This document shows positions 34,769 through 41,264 of a DNA stretch of 57,547 bases, in pieces. The notes under the pieces were generated by a model that worked only from the letters and a program-made list of their open reading frames with translations, ran no database searches and was not told the DNA's origin. The stretch's first letter is position 1. Every line of letters begins with the position of its first letter. This DNA is from an uncultured Sphingobacteriales bacterium (lineage in GTDB: Bacteria; Bacteroidota; Bacteroidia; Chitinophagales; Chitinophagaceae). Location: assembly GCA_946479435.1 (NCBI GenBank), contig CAMLFX010000006.1:1-57547 (forward strand), written 5' to 3'. Position numbers and translations under genes: made by a program.

Positions 34769-35890
34769 TTATACGCCTACCATCAAAGGCATCAGCAGCA
34801 TCAATACATTTTCATTGTCAGTTACTTCAGTTGGTTTGAAGATACCTGCACGTGTGGGTGTGCTTAGTTCAACCTGTATCTCACTGCCATCAAGATTGTT
34901 CAGCAGCTCGATCATTAGTTTTGCGTTGAATGCGATTTTTATATCCTCACCATTGTATTGGCAGCTCAACGTTTCCTTACCCTCGTAAGAGAAGTCAATA
35001 TCCTGTGCACTAAGTTGTAGTGCATTGCCATTAATATCCAGTACAACTTGGTTAGTAGTCTTGTTGGCAAATATGCTTACCCTGCGTAGCGCACTTACAA
35101 AATCGGTGCGGCTGATGCTCAACCTGTAAGGGTTGTCTTGCGGTATAACCGATTTATACGGAGGGAACTTCGCATCTATCAGTCGGCAGCTCATGCTGAA
35201 TTTACCACCTGTAATAAATAAATGGCTGCTGTTGTAAGACAATTCAAGCTGCGTGTCATCGGCCGGCAGTACACTGCGTAATTGCTGCAATGGTTTCTTA
35301 GGCACTACAAAACCTTCTTCCGTTGGGCATTCAATATCGGTGCGTGTAAACTGTACCAGCCTGTGTGCATCAGTTGAAACGAATGTGATGCCAGACTTTG
35401 AAAGCTCGAAAAATACACCCGTCATAGCAGGCCTCAACGTGTCGTTACTTACTGCAAACAAAGTTTTATTGATGCTTTCTAATAATGCTATCGATGGTAT
35501 ATTGAAGCTTGTAGCATCACCAGGCGATGGTTCTTTAGGGAAATCATCAGCCCTTTCACCACCTATTTTATATTTACCTACATCGCTCGACATTTCTATT
35601 GAAAGATCTTGCTCGTTGATATTGAAAGTGATTGGCTGCTCAGGCAGGTTCTTCAAATACTCGGTAAGTATTTTCGATGGTATGCAAATACGTCCATCAC
35701 CCTGTGCATCATTCACATCGAGTTGCACACGCATCATAGTTTCAAGGTCGGTAGCAGTAAGGGTAAGCGTGTTCCCTTTCAGCTCGAACAAGAAATCTTC
35801 TAACACAGATAACACGGTATTGGCACTTATAACACCGCTGATTTGTTGTAAGTTTTTGAGTAACGCTGTTGAGGTGACGATGAATCGCAT
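34769..35890 (-). CDS. dnaN: DNA polymerase III sliding clamp, beta subunit
   Basis: 373 residues, the usual length, made of three repeated clamp domains (about 1-120, 128-245 and 247-373). Recognisable parts are MRFIVTSTALLKNLQQISGVI at the start, ATDLETMMRV near 46, FVSTDAHRLVQF near 175-186 and the C-terminal MLLMPLMVGV, the partner-binding end (usual form ...PMRL). It forms the ring that holds the polymerase on DNA. It is not beside dnaA or recF here. Its promoter box is at 35916. Confidence 0.97.
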   Translation of the reverse strand: MRFIVTSTALLKNLQQISGVISANTVLSVLEDFLFELKGNTLTLTATDLETMMRVQLDVNDAQGDGRICIPSKILTEYLKNLPEQPITFNINEQDLSIEMSSDVGKYKIGGERADDFPKEPSPGDATSFNIPSIALLESINKTLFAVSNDTLRPAMTGVFFELSKSGITFVSTDAHRLVQFTRTDIECPTEEGFVVPKKPLQQLRSVLPADDTQLELSYNSSHLFITGGKFSMSCRLIDAKFPPYKSVIPQDNPYRLSISRTDFVSALRRVSIFANKTTNQVVLDINGNALQLSAQDIDFSYEGKETLSCQYNGEDIKIAFNAKLMIELLNNLDGSEIQVELSTPTRAGIFKPTEVTDNENVLMLLMPLMVGV

Positions 35891-36051: not shown

Positions 36052-37422
36052 ATGCTGAATTGGATTAATATTTTGTTTGGTAAAAAAAAGGAAAAGGATA
36101 GCGGCAGCCCCTTGGCAGAGGCTGTAGACTTAGACAGAATAGATGCTGGCAGGTATAGCGATAACAATAAATCGCTCGATAAGATAAATAATTGGTACAA
36201 GGCCGAGGATCTTTATAAGGCTAAACAGTACGAAGAATCTGTATCAGCATTTTTCAATTATATAACAGATGAGAGGGTAAGGAATGTAACATTGCAGAAG
36301 ACAGGCGGGAAGAACTTCAATTTCCAGATATTACAGGGCTCCAAACGTATATTAGGCAGCTTTGACGGCAAGAAAATAGTAGGGGAAGTATCTCTAGCCA
36401 TAATGGACTATCCCGGTGTTGCCATTATGCGCAGGCTTCTGGAGTTGAATTATAATTTATACTATACACGGGCAGCCTTGAACGATGATAAAACCTTATG
36501 CCTGCTTTTCGACACGGATATCAGTACGGCAAGCCCTGAAAAAATGTATTACGGGTTAAGGGAATTAGCTGTAAGCGGCGACCGGCAAGATGACCTGCTT
36601 ATAGCAGATTTCAGTACCCTGAAAGGGACCGATACAAACAATACGCAGCAATTGTCTTCCGCGGAAATTGCTATAAAATATAAGTATTTCAAAAACTGGA
36701 TAACCGGCACACTTCAGGATGTAGAAGTATTGAACCAGGATTCTTTTTCGGGGGCTATTGCCTATATGTTGCTGGGCCTTGTTTACCGTATAGATTTTTT
36801 CTTTACTCCCGAAGGCCCGCTATTCTCCGATCTTGAAAAGATATACCGTATATATTGGGAGAAAAAAGATCAGGTAGCTTTGGTGGAACGCAACAGGCTA
36901 ATGAAGCTGGCCATAAAAAAACTACTGGATGTAACTGAAGAAGCTTTTGCGATCAGTGTTTATAATGCCACTTATACTTTTTCAGCAGGTACGCCGCCAT
37001 CTGCAGAAAAAGTGCGGGAGCATATTATTAATGCAAATAAAGATGCACAGTGGTATATTGAAAATAAGCATCCTGAAATAGCTGTCAGGTTGGTTGGCTA
37101 TGGGCTGTTGCATAACCAGTTTATTTATAGCATGCCTAAAGTGCAAACCTCACTTATCAAAATACTAATGGCTGTAATACATCACGATTACTGCAATGAA
37201 CTATGGCCTGATATAAAATTTTACGATGCAGAGCATAAAAAATTCAATCGCGATTTGATAGAACATACTACCAACAAAGCATTAGAAGAGTTTAAAGAAA
37301 GATATGAACATATAAAATGGGATAACGAACGTATTCGGTACAACACATTATTCGATTTTTGTATCAGCTACAGCGAACAAATAGCTAACCTGAACCTGAA
37401 AACAAAAAGGACGGTAAAATGA
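36052..37422 (+). CDS. Unrecognised protein with a YbjN/type-III-chaperone-like segment
   Basis: 456 residues; I do not recognise the whole protein. No signal peptide or membrane helix. Residues 1-60 are charged. Residues about 60-200 look like the CesT/YbjN fold: an early strand region (RILGSFDGKKIVGEVSLA), then MRRLLELNYNLYYTRAAL, then DKTLCLLFDTDISTASPEKMYYGLREL ending in a helix. Residues 215-456 seem mostly helical, with no motif I can name. The stop overlaps the protease start by four bases (ATGA), so the two are translationally coupled. The protease carries a similar domain at its C-terminus, which suggests the two proteins pair. Gene reality is certain; function is not known. Confidence 0.75.
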   Translation: MLNWINILFGKKKEKDSGSPLAEAVDLDRIDAGRYSDNNKSLDKINNWYKAEDLYKAKQYEESVSAFFNYITDERVRNVTLQKTGGKNFNFQILQGSKRILGSFDGKKIVGEVSLAIMDYPGVAIMRRLLELNYNLYYTRAALNDDKTLCLLFDTDISTASPEKMYYGLRELAVSGDRQDDLLIADFSTLKGTDTNNTQQLSSAEIAIKYKYFKNWITGTLQDVEVLNQDSFSGAIAYMLLGLVYRIDFFFTPEGPLFSDLEKIYRIYWEKKDQVALVERNRLMKLAIKKLLDVTEEAFAISVYNATYTFSAGTPPSAEKVREHIINANKDAQWYIENKHPEIAVRLVGYGLLHNQFIYSMPKVQTSLIKILMAVIHHDYCNELWPDIKFYDAEHKKFNRDLIEHTTNKALEEFKERYEHIKWDNERIRYNTLFDFCISYSEQIANLNLKTKRTVK

Positions 37423-38525
37423 GTATACAGGATATAATAGAACGTTATGAAAATGCGGTAGTGCAAATTGCTACTAATTCGGGTACAGGTACAGGTTTTT
37501 ATTTGCACGAGTATAAGCTGGTAGTTACCAATTATCACGTAGTACGAGACAATGCCTATGTATCTTTAAAGATCCCGTCCATAGAAAAAAAGCTTGCGAA
37601 AGTAGTGTTCTACGACGAACGGTATGATCTGGCATTTCTTATGCCTCCTGTCGATTTAGATAATCTTCCTACGCTAAGGCTTGGTTATTATCCCGATCTG
37701 AAAGATGGAGACAGTGTATTGGCAATTGGCCACCCCTATGGATTGAACTATACGGCTACACAAGGTGTTATATCACGTGTTGACAGGATACAGCAGGGCT
37801 TAAATTATATACAGATAGATGCAGCCATCAACCCTGGCAATAGTGGGGGGCCGCTTGTAGATATTGATGGTTCTGTAGTAGGGGTTAATACGTTTATAAT
37901 AAAAGGTGGCGATAATCTTGGCTTTGCACTGCCGGTCAATTATTTAAAAGAAGCGCTCGACCAATATAAATTGATATACGGTGAGGTAGCGATAAGATGT
38001 CCTAATTGCGCTACGTTGGTCACTGAAAAGACTTTAGATAATTATAAATACTGCCCCAATTGCGGTACTATAATTGAGTTTAAAAAACTTAATGAGCCTG
38101 AAGAGGATAACTTATCGGGTATTGCAAGCATTATTGAAGATATCTTAGAGATGCTGGGCTATGATAAAAAACTATCGCGTAGCGGGCAAAATAAATGGGA
38201 GATAAAAAAAGGATCAGCCAGGATCAAGATAACTTACAATACAGACAATTATTTTATTGTTTGCGACGCCTACCTCTGCAGGCTTCCGAAGAATGGCATT
38301 AAAGAACTGTACACTTTTTTGCTACAGGAAAACTATAAACTGCATAGCAAATTGTTCAGCCTGAAAGGAGAGAACATTATACTTAGCAGCCTTATATATG
38401 ATATCGATATAAAACCTGAAACAGGTAAAGATATATTCAGTCGCTTTTTTGAGAAAGCAGATTACTACGATAATCTACTGGAGAAACAATACCATTGCTT
38501 ACCCATACTTGAAGAAGATATGTAA
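37419..38525 (+). CDS. Cytosolic trypsin-like protease with zinc ribbon and YbjN-like domain
   Basis: 368 residues in three parts. Residues 1-185 are an S1C/HtrA-type protease with catalytic triad H40 (TNYHVV), D70 (RYDLAF) and S142 (NPGNSGGPLVD). No signal peptide, membrane anchor or PDZ domain is present, unlike DegP/DegS. Residues 192-218 are a zinc ribbon with C194, C197, C212 and C215. Residues 233-358 resemble the YbjN/type-III-chaperone fold: helix IASIIEDILEML, strands, then helix FLLQENYKLHSKLFSL and ENIILSSLI. It overlaps the upstream gene by four bases. Substrate and trigger are unknown; a cytosolic protein-quality or regulated-cleavage role is inferred. Confidence 0.85.
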   Translation: MSIQDIIERYENAVVQIATNSGTGTGFYLHEYKLVVTNYHVVRDNAYVSLKIPSIEKKLAKVVFYDERYDLAFLMPPVDLDNLPTLRLGYYPDLKDGDSVLAIGHPYGLNYTATQGVISRVDRIQQGLNYIQIDAAINPGNSGGPLVDIDGSVVGVNTFIIKGGDNLGFALPVNYLKEALDQYKLIYGEVAIRCPNCATLVTEKTLDNYKYCPNCGTIIEFKKLNEPEEDNLSGIASIIEDILEMLGYDKKLSRSGQNKWEIKKGSARIKITYNTDNYFIVCDAYLCRLPKNGIKELYTFLLQENYKLHSKLFSLKGENIILSSLIYDIDIKPETGKDIFSRFFEKADYYDNLLEKQYHCLPILEEDM

Positions 38526-38557
38526 AATTAAAGCGCCTGCTGGCGCTTTAATTTTTT
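38524..38557. terminator. Bidirectional terminator between the protease gene and alaS
   Basis: A 14-bp stem (AAAATTAAAGCGCC/GGCGCTTTAATTTT) with loop TGCT, A-rich on one side and T-rich on the other; it ends both convergent units. Confidence 0.9.
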
Positions 38558-41264
38558 AGTTTAATAATGCTCTTACTTTATCTATAACAGCTGCCAGGTT
38601 GCCGATATCCTGCCCACCTGCTGTTGCAAGCGTTTTCTGTCCTCCTCCACCGCCTTTAATAAGCGGCGCTACCTGTTCTTTAATTATCTTACTTGCATCC
38701 AATCCTTTGGCGGCATTCACAGTATCGGCCACGCCTATAGCAACAAATGCTTTGCCGTCAATATTAGCACACAGTACTATTAGGTGGTCATTCAAATGGT
38801 GTTTTACATCTGCGCATAACTTCTTTAATGCATCGCCTGAGCTTACTTCTACAATATCACCTACAAAACTTACCTGGTTGATGATCTCATCTTTTGTCAG
38901 CAATTCGTTTCGTATAGCAACTAACTGGCGTGCTTCTAACGAGGCAATATGTTTCTCTAACTGTTGTTTTTCTTCATACAGTTTTTCAATTGCTTTCAAT
39001 GGGTCTTTTGCATTCTTCAATGCTAACTGTACTTCATGCAAAGTATGCAAGTGTTCATTCACATATTCTTCAGCCGCTTTACCACTTATCGCTTCAATAC
39101 GGCGTACACCCGCTGCTACTGCACTTTCATGTTTTATTTTGAAAAAACCTAACTGGCCGGTATTGCCTACGTGCGTACCGCCACACAATTCTATCGAGTA
39201 GTTAGGATCCATTACTACCACGCGTACTTTATCGCCATACTTTTCACCGAACAATGCCATAGCTCCCATAGCTACTGCTTCGTCCTTCGCCATTTCTTTT
39301 ATTACTACAGGTACGTTATCGCGTATCTTTTCGTTTACTAATGCTTCTATTTGTTTGATCTCTTCATCGGTTACTTTCGCAAAGTGTGAAAAGTCAAAAC
39401 GCAAATGCTCTTCATTTACCAACGAACCTTTTTGTGTAACATGGGTACCCAATACTGTACGCAGCGCTGCGTGCAATAAGTGCGTAGCGCTATGGTGTGC
39501 TTCAGTGCCTGAGCGTTTTATAGTATCTATCTTAGCAAGCACCGAACCACTAACATCTGCTGGTAGTGTTTCGGAGAAATGAATGATCAGGTCATTCTCT
39601 TTCTTGGTATCAATGATCTGTATCGTTTCATTCGGAAATATCAATTCACCTGTATCACCAACCTGTCCACCGCTTTCAGCGTAGAAAGGTGTTTGGTCTA
39701 ATACCAATTGATAAGACTCTTTTCCTTTAGCTTTTACCTTCCTGTATTTCACCACATTGGCAGTTGCCTCTACGTTATCGTAGCCTACAAACTTCGAACT
39801 ACCTTCTTTCAATACTACCCAGTCTTCCGTATCTAAAGCTGTTGCAGCACGGCTGCGTGTTTTCTGTTGTTGCAAAGATTTTTCAAAGCTCTCGATATCT
39901 ACTCTCCAACCATCTTCTCTAGCCATAAGGCTTGTTAAGTCTATTGGGAATCCATAAGTATCACTTAATTCAAATGCGAAAGGTCCGGCTATAATTTTTT
40001 GACTTATTTCTTTACCATATTGTTCTCTTAGTTCTATCACATCCCTTATTTCTCCTTCTGGCTGAATACTAATTACATTTCTTGGATATTCCTTTACATC
40101 AGTAGTATAAGATACATACCTTGAAATTCCTTTAGATAGGGTTCTTAAAAATGCTTCTTCTTCTTCCAATACCACTTTAGCAACAAAATCTTTCTGCTTA
40201 TCTAATTCTGAGAAAACATCTCTAAACTGTTCGGCTAATACTGCAACTAACTTTGTTAATAAAGGTTGTTTGTAATCAAAATAGGAATAATAGTATCGAA
40301 CGGCTCTACGTAATATACGGCGTATCACATAACCCGAACCGGTATTCGATGGCAGCTGTCCATCAGCAATGGTGAAGCATATAGCTCGGATATGGTCAGC
40401 TATAACACGAAAGGCTACATCCTTATGACTATCTGAATATTTATACTCCCTTCCTGTGATCTTCATAACCTCTGCTATAGTGCCAGTAAACAGGTCAGTA
40501 TCGTAATTGCTTTGTTTGTTTTGCAGCACACGTACCAAACGCTCAAGCCCCATACCGGTATCTACGTGTTTGGCAGGTAAAGGTTGCAGGCTGCCATCTT
40601 TCATGCGGTTGAACTGCATGAACACATTGTTCCATATCTCTATCACCTGCGGGTGGTCGGCATTTACAAGTGTAGCGCCATCTACTTGTTTCCGTTCTTC
40701 CAGTGTACGGCAATCCACATGTATTTCCGAGCAGGGTCCGCACGGGCCCGTATCGCCCATCTCCCAGAAGTTGTCTTTCTTGTTCCCCATCAGTATGCGC
40801 TCTTCCGGCACAAACTGTTTCCATGTTTCATAAGCTTCATCATCCTTTGGCAGGTTTTCTGATGCATCGCCCTGGAAAACGGTAACGTATAATTTATCCT
40901 TAGGTATCTTGTATACTTCGGTCAGCAGTTCCCAGCTCCACTCTATGGCTTCTTTTTTAAAATAGTCGCCAAAGCTCCAGTTACCCAGCATCTCGAACAT
41001 GGTATGGTGGTAGGTATCTACACCCACTTCTTCCAGGTCGTTATGTTTACCGCTTACGCGCAGGCATTTCTGTGTATCGGCCACACGTGGGTCGGGTGCT
41101 TGTTTGTTGCCCAAAAAGTAGTCTTTGAACTGGTTCATACCCGCATTGGTAAACAGCAGGGTCGGGTCGTTCTTCACAACTATAGGGGCAGAAGCAACTA
41201 TTACGTGTCCTTTACTTTTAAAGAAATCCAGATATTGCCGGCGTATCTCGTTGGCAGTAAGCAT
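38556..41264 (-). CDS. alaS: Alanyl-tRNA synthetase
   Basis: 902 residues, somewhat longer than the usual 870-880. The class II core starts at RRQYLDFFKSKGHV; NAGMNQFKDYF and the GCGPCSEIHVD-like GPCGPCSEIHVD lie in the catalytic domain. The editing domain has HSATHLLHAALR (near 598-609) and CGGTHVGNTG (near 695-704), and a glycine-rich C-Ala domain ends the protein (KGGGGGQKTLATAGG). Residues about 370-430 hold a stretch (near YVSYTTDVKEYPRN...) not found in the Escherichia coli enzyme. In roughly 39,900-40,290 all arginine codons I read are AGA/AGG, unlike the flanks. Promoter box at 41289. Confidence 0.97.
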   Translation of the reverse strand: MLTANEIRRQYLDFFKSKGHVIVASAPIVVKNDPTLLFTNAGMNQFKDYFLGNKQAPDPRVADTQKCLRVSGKHNDLEEVGVDTYHHTMFEMLGNWSFGDYFKKEAIEWSWELLTEVYKIPKDKLYVTVFQGDASENLPKDDEAYETWKQFVPEERILMGNKKDNFWEMGDTGPCGPCSEIHVDCRTLEERKQVDGATLVNADHPQVIEIWNNVFMQFNRMKDGSLQPLPAKHVDTGMGLERLVRVLQNKQSNYDTDLFTGTIAEVMKITGREYKYSDSHKDVAFRVIADHIRAICFTIADGQLPSNTGSGYVIRRILRRAVRYYYSYFDYKQPLLTKLVAVLAEQFRDVFSELDKQKDFVAKVVLEEEEAFLRTLSKGISRYVSYTTDVKEYPRNVISIQPEGEIRDVIELREQYGKEISQKIIAGPFAFELSDTYGFPIDLTSLMAREDGWRVDIESFEKSLQQQKTRSRAATALDTEDWVVLKEGSSKFVGYDNVEATANVVKYRKVKAKGKESYQLVLDQTPFYAESGGQVGDTGELIFPNETIQIIDTKKENDLIIHFSETLPADVSGSVLAKIDTIKRSGTEAHHSATHLLHAALRTVLGTHVTQKGSLVNEEHLRFDFSHFAKVTDEEIKQIEALVNEKIRDNVPVVIKEMAKDEAVAMGAMALFGEKYGDKVRVVVMDPNYSIELCGGTHVGNTGQLGFFKIKHESAVAAGVRRIEAISGKAAEEYVNEHLHTLHEVQLALKNAKDPLKAIEKLYEEKQQLEKHIASLEARQLVAIRNELLTKDEIINQVSFVGDIVEVSSGDALKKLCADVKHHLNDHLIVLCANIDGKAFVAIGVADTVNAAKGLDASKIIKEQVAPLIKGGGGGQKTLATAGGQDIGNLAAVIDKVRALLN

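Follow-up and report, generated by a model that had tools for sequence, protein, structure and literature searches.

What might an HtrA-type protease do on the cytosolic side of the membrane, fused to a chaperone-like domain and encoded beside a second protein with a domain of the same kind? HtrA proteases are known mainly for quality control outside the cytoplasm, under the direction of PDZ domains; the TY-Chap (YbjN/type III secretion system [T3SS] chaperone) fold binds peptides in other proteins. A pair of genes combining the two is present in contig CAMLFX010000006.1 of an uncultured Sphingobacteriales bacterium (assembly GCA_946479435.1), of which positions 1 to 57,547 were analysed as a whole and are called the window here. 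Gene 1 encodes a 456-residue partner protein and gene 2 the protease. Surveyed relatives almost always have both genes or neither, which suggests that the two form a machine, so far unstudied, for what is probably the handling or destruction of proteins, perhaps on the inner side of the cell membrane. The preferred reading, with about an even chance of being right, is a two-protein cytosolic chaperone–protease in which gene 1 supplies a dedicated partner or adaptor, perhaps tethered to the membrane.

Domain architecture of the two proteins

In the gene 2 protein, a trypsin-fold protease domain with a His–Asp–Ser triad (His40, Asp70, Ser142) is followed by a zinc ribbon with four cysteines and, at the C-terminus, by a TY-Chap domain. 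A preliminary description, made from the sequence alone, had proposed this layout and the absence of a PDZ domain and signal peptide, and the analysis confirms it. No PDZ domain was found among the best 25 of 27 Pfam matches to E = 10; the C-terminus aligns instead with its counterpart in gene 1, the TY-Chap domain there. A hydrophobic N-terminal stretch is likewise missing, the top 19-residue Kyte–Doolittle mean in the first 30 windows being 0.21, with no dedicated signal-peptide predictor run. The protein scores 164.3 bits with TIGR02037, for which the curated cut-off is 416.2, and is also below the cut-offs of the Do/DegP/DegQ/DegS/HtrA models. Because the PDZ, export and score features were all looked for and none was found, the pair is set outside the HtrA/Deg subfamilies.

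The predicted structure of the gene 1 protein contains the alpha-beta3-alpha-beta2-alpha chaperone fold of the YbjN/TY-Chap superfamily. An hhalign comparison links this domain to the C-terminal domain of gene 2 (92.2%, E = 6e-7), and in the model of the latter the order of helices and strands appears to match the TY-Chap fold. In the corresponding domain of 22 gene 2 relatives, Pfam searches at E ≤ 0.1 found TY-Chap1 in four and YbjN in two. As far as sequence comparison goes, the two TY-Chap domains are homologous, and the YbjN-like fold proposed earlier for both proteins is borne out, by the model for gene 1 and by hhalign and the model for gene 2. The long helical part of gene 1, which the preliminary description could not name, still has no name: its high-confidence model gives no informative match to known structures, the domain not having been searched on its own. 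One gene 1 relative (L105 4110-6461, from G155:C236) lies in a 783-residue frame with about 325 additional N-terminal residues and is followed by a normal gene 2.

Conserved pairing of the two genes

Protein searches yielded 513 relatives of gene 1 (the best 7996 candidates were scored) and 73 relatives of the gene 2 tail. A scan of named genomes gave 124 gene 1 relatives, of which the best 80 were kept as the basis of all named-locus counts. All 80 are titled as Bacteroidota lineages, for example Chitinophagaceae, Taibaiella, Flavisolibacter and 'Sphingobacteriales'. Gene 2 directly follows gene 1 on the same strand in 78 of them, so that the expected pairing across Bacteroidota is found; in the other two (L048 and L072) the contig stops at, or ≤12 bases from, the end of gene 1. 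The order of the genes (same strand, gene 1 first) is kept in every linked copy counted, namely these 78 loci and 64 of 99 survey copies. The four-base overlap noted earlier, which in the window is ATGA (37419-37422, both genes on the plus strand), is not: by mechanically picked start codons, the genes overlap at all in 14 of the 78 loci and lie ≤100 bases apart in 70, with a median gap of 15 bases.

Co-occurrence was surveyed in 248 genomes, all taken from the order to which one relative belongs. Of these, 93 have gene 1 and 93 the gene 2 tail, or 92 once a weak match in a 185-residue frame (G119) is dropped. Both genes occur in 91 genomes, gene 1 only in two (G218, and G129, whose contig stops about 140 bases past the gene) and gene 2 only in one (G123, where the gene is cut at the contig start); 88 of the 93 gene 1-bearing genomes have a single gene 1 match. 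GSCFA (PF08885), tried as a control gene for co-distribution, was rejected as too common to inform (200 of 248 genomes). A second sample of 296 genomes of the phylum, overlapping the first, contains gene 1 in 12, seven of which also belong to the order sample. The gene 2 tail is matched in 16, and the 13 strong matches include all 12 gene 1 genomes; the lone or weak matches in G389, G423 and G435 were dropped. The thirteenth genome, G352, has the tail in a 383-residue frame (C31:83466-83882) with no gene 1 detected at E ≤ 0.001; a divergent partner may escape detection.

Among 99 gene 1 open reading frames (ORFs) in the survey stretches, 61 are linked to a full-length gene 2 and three to a lone TY-Chap gene; for another 33 the genome holds a full-length gene 2 at a separate, unlinked place, and two have none. 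The 33 unlinked copies indicate that both genes usually persist in the genome even if separated. Shared descent without any physical or functional link could produce both adjacency and co-occurrence, as the surveyed genomes are related and the co-occurrence figure (Fisher p = 1.2e-64) ignores phylogeny. This explanation is hardly probable at all, given adjacency in three deep branches with differing neighbours, the retention of both genes in the 33 separated cases and the homology of the two TY-Chap domains.

Protease loss, the end motif and the proposed mechanism

All 95 full-length gene 2 ORFs have the four cysteines, and 88 of them also have a complete triad. Where it is lost, Ser is replaced by Gly (G198, G073, G110), Ala (G250) or Val (G220), His by Gln (G234), or two residues are changed (G179 C4). 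G179 has a second gene 2 copy with an intact triad; in the other six genomes no additional gene 2 tail was found apart from matches within gene 1. A tree places four of the seven dead proteases in one clade (support 0.945) and, since G179 C4 and G234 lie outside it, suggests that the protease was inactivated at least three times, several branches there being weakly supported. Seven relatives of the dead clade retain Ser, with AHSGG or SHSGG instead of GNSGG. The gene 2 branch with such decaying active sites (AHSGG/SHSGG or Ser lost; L112, L113, L190, L191, L205-L212) is unlinked from gene 1 throughout.

The protease domain can also be missing altogether. A lone TY-Chap gene of 136–142 residues adjoins gene 1 in G122, G139 and G156, with a 4-base overlap in G156. 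G122 additionally holds two full pairs elsewhere; in G139 and G156 no further gene 2 tail was found in the genome search. In the tree, the lone TY-Chap genes form long branches and are weakly placed. To judge by these sequences, the constant core is gene 1 plus a TY-Chap domain, and the protease is optional.

This outlasting of the protease by the pair favours the strongest rival, which differs from the preferred reading mainly in emphasis: the two TY-Chap domains would form a heterodimer that holds or delivers a specific client, the protease just disposing of failed clients. A proposal that members of the YbjN family stabilise proteins or act as chaperones (PMC3575483) accords with it. The explanation is nevertheless rather unlikely, since the triad intact in 88 of 95 ORFs indicates that selection probably maintains proteolysis in the majority of lineages, and no constant neighbour gene offers itself as a client, the neighbours varying by branch.

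Alternatively, gene 1 could be a substrate or inhibitor cut on signal, as in a regulated proteolysis switch, with the TY-Chap domain of gene 2 as its docking site. One-to-one pairing and adjacency would suit such a switch, as would the conserved segment GRYSDNNK of gene 1, which adjoins a low-confidence stretch and might serve for docking or for cleavage under regulation. Its residues G33, Y35, D37, N38, N39 and K40 are invariant across 37 close relatives; in distant relatives the segment is changed or missing. The idea of a protease-dependent motif was dropped, because the segment does not follow the protease cleanly: one of the three protease-less cases retains it (as GRFSDAFK), the protease-linked copies of G144, G206 and G104 have it altered although the triad is intact, and in group 3 pairs (distant relatives), whose triads are intact, it is not recognisable. 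Gene 1, moreover, is kept beside a lone TY-Chap gene in three genomes and persists where the protease lacks a catalytic residue (seven of 95). Because it persists beside protease-less partners, a role as mere substrate or inhibitor fits poorly, and this alternative is doubtful.

Gene 1 of the window carries an N-terminal aromatic motif, LNWINILFGKKK. Its close relatives start M-x-W-L-x-K-L-F-G, the window version being MLNWINILFGKKK. The strict N-terminal pattern fits 90 of 110 full-length gene 1 N-termini and 8.7% of 770 neighbouring ORFs, the starts of which were picked mechanically. In group 3 this motif is absent and the C-terminus is KKGFFxKLFG instead. Of the group 3 survey copies, 15 of 18 have this pattern; among 1139 control C-termini the share is 0.09%, and none of the 81 main-family survey copies has it. 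A protein search seeded with seven group 3 proteins has it in 98 of the 120 matches listed (of 364). Among the matches listed, the N-terminal pattern is absent from the group 3 proteins and the C-terminal one from all 120 main-family proteins; neither occurs in any of 73 gene 2 relatives, nor the C-terminal pattern in 2450 internal 18-residue segments of group 3 proteins. Both patterns were composed after the sequences had been inspected. The motif thus sits at either protein end depending on the branch, and is conserved and portable; its likeliest meaning, by analogy, would be membrane targeting. In its letters KKGFFxKLFG presumably resembles the tail of E. coli MinD. The membrane targeting sequence of MinD, a C-terminal amphipathic helix (PMC8155659), is likewise a short end segment; unlike it, the window motif has no high hydrophobic moment.

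In the preferred reading, the two TY-Chap domains would pair as a heterodimer, like heterodimeric T3SS chaperones, and the end segment of gene 1 would bring the complex to the inner face of the membrane. Gene 1, by its helical domain and chaperone sheets, would capture unfolded or exposed stretches of clients, which the gene 2 protease would then cut; in gene 2, the zinc ribbon and TY-Chap domain take the place of the PDZ of an HtrA-type protease. In some lineages the protease would be dead or lost and the chaperone pair would stay. A wider proposal, put forward tentatively, is a new chaperone–protease class with the TY–TY heterodimer as its core, held at the inner membrane face through the portable end motif, and the HtrA-type protease as an exchangeable effector anchored in trans by its partner. 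It would do on the cytosolic side what HtrA quality control does in the periplasm.

Several results weigh against the preferred reading. A pattern also demanding net positive charge fits just 53 of 110 N-termini and 17.1% of controls. The hydrophobic moment of the window motif is low (0.10; z −0.97 relative to its own shuffles), and the family mean is 0.233, compared with 0.205 in controls (Mann–Whitney p 0.0018; mean z 0.39 relative to own shuffles); these values do not stand out, and the moment is weak as support for membrane binding. Given the low moment and the charge-pattern fit, the case for a membrane role depends on where the motif sits and what it resembles. Covariation does not single out a TY–TY surface. 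In 193 pairs (effective number 138; 21 joined only through equal size of source contigs), the raw top 50 covarying pairs include 21 between the gene 1 helical and gene 2 TY-Chap domains (11.2 expected) and seven between the TY-Chap domains (6.3 expected); with partners shuffled within clades, the counts are 12 helical–TY, 12 TY–TY and 15 TY–protease (8.5 expected). The co-occurrence probability ignores shared ancestry, as noted, and proteolysis is not universal, because seven of 95 proteases miss a catalytic residue.

Genomic context and comparison with known systems

The pair in the window is flanked by dnaN (34769-35890) and alaS (38556-41264), both on the minus strand; Table 1 lists its features.

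Table 1. Features of the gene pair and its 3′ flank in the window
Feature	Position	Strand	Basis or remark
Gene 1, 456-aa partner protein	36052..37422	+	end motif, GRYSDNNK segment, TY-Chap/YbjN domain, helical domain
Gene 1 N-terminal aromatic/basic motif MLNWINILFGKKKEK, residues 1-15	36052..36096	+	putative membrane targeting (proposed)
Gene 1 segment GRYSDNNK, residues 33-40	36148..36171	+	conservation in relatives
Gene 1 TY-Chap/YbjN-fold domain, residues 50-194	36199..36633	+	sequence and model
Gene 1 helical domain, residues 195-456	36634..37419	+	high-confidence model
Gene 2, 368-aa HtrA-like protease with zinc ribbon and TY-Chap domain	37419..38525	+	
Gene 2 HtrA-type (trypsin-fold) protease domain, residues 1-188; H40, D70, S142	37419..37982	+	
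Gene 2 zinc-ribbon region, residues 189-225; C194, C197, C212, C215	37983..38093	+	
Gene 2 TY-Chap/YbjN-like domain, residues 226-368	38094..38522	+	C-terminal
Stem-loop, terminator-like, strong, 14 pairs	38524..38555	+	between gene 2 and convergent alaS

In the named loci, the closest upstream gene belongs to a divergent dnaN cluster in 53 of 78 cases and the closest downstream gene to a recX cluster in 36 of 78; one recX member was confirmed by Pfam, and the dnaN cluster was named from reading its sequences. Other branches have other neighbours. Linked group 2 loci (n = 32) have GSCFA in 14, PorP/SprF in 17 and bactofilin in 13 cases within 2.5 kb; at loci such as L091, L103 and L104, a divergent GSCFA gene lies upstream and PorP/SprF and bactofilin genes downstream of linked pairs. 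A LuxR-type response regulator adjoins eight of 18 group 3 loci, and pairs there (e.g. L095, L096, L097) are often divergent to it. One member of each of these four neighbour families was checked by Pfam. In several genomes with separated genes (loci L081, L084, L085, L101, L106, L110, L111), gene 1 stands beside a PaaD-like gene (five by pattern, seven by clustering) and gene 2 near a PaaC-like gene (three by pattern, five by clustering), with both kinds of neighbour on one contig in G166:C90; one PaaC and one PaaD were checked by Pfam. A rearrangement involving a phenylacetate cluster may have split gene 1 from gene 2.

This context also bears on the idea that the pair is a conflict system, directed at phages or otherwise, in which the trypsin-like protease is the effector. 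The TY-Chap families were first delineated from ADP-ribose-centred conflict loci (PMC9503650), and PADLOC models match the protease portion of gene 2, the best being RT-Protease_XI (E 4.8e-20). However, that match, the best of six, covers only the protease end of the model (positions 340-502 of 506), and gene 1 has no PADLOC match; one weak match (E 0.028) falls in the gene 2 tail. A tblastn search with gene 1 at 1e-5 found nothing among 72,556 records of plasmids and 50,697 of phages. The conserved chromosomal place in the window's branch and the single gene 1 match in most genomes (88 of 93) also argue against such a system, for which the chances are slim; a defence role for the pair is unlikely.

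Every recognisable part of the pair belongs to known folds, the HtrA-type protease and the TY-Chap chaperone, and the pair itself is undescribed in the literature searched. Titles and abstract openings of the open-licence papers that the searches gave contain no description of it, in keeping with the earlier remark that no named system has this layout. Its significance lies in an HtrA-type protease that is apparently cytosolic and coupled, with a dedicated homologous partner, to a fold best known from type III secretion. Since the pair survives in some relatives whose protease is dead or gone, how chaperone and protease share the work is directly testable, and YbjN-fold domains, the roles of which are still debated, would gain a defined complex for study.

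With the HtrA/Deg proteases (S1C; DegP, DegQ, DegS, HtrA1/2) gene 2 shares the trypsin-fold His–Asp–Ser domain; it differs in having a zinc ribbon and TY-Chap domain and no signal peptide or PDZ, and in scoring far under the curated cut-offs. The YbjN-family chains of solved structure (E. coli YbjN 6vu7, AmyR 5fr7, DR1245 4h5b, Synechococcus 2plg) are single domains of 141–152 residues, whereas gene 1 has the fold joined to a helical domain and gene 2 has it joined to a protease. TY-Chap1 (PF22551), known from domains of ADP-ribose conflict loci, is the same Pfam family as in some relatives; the word 'trypsin' is absent from the main text of the paper concerned (PMC9503650). The T3SS class I chaperones (SycN–YscB with YopN, 1xkp; ExsC–ExsE, 3kxy) have the fold in common with the TY-Chap domains described here, and SycN–YscB, by the title of its PDB entry, is a precedent for the two-chaperone heterodimer that gene 1 and gene 2 would form.
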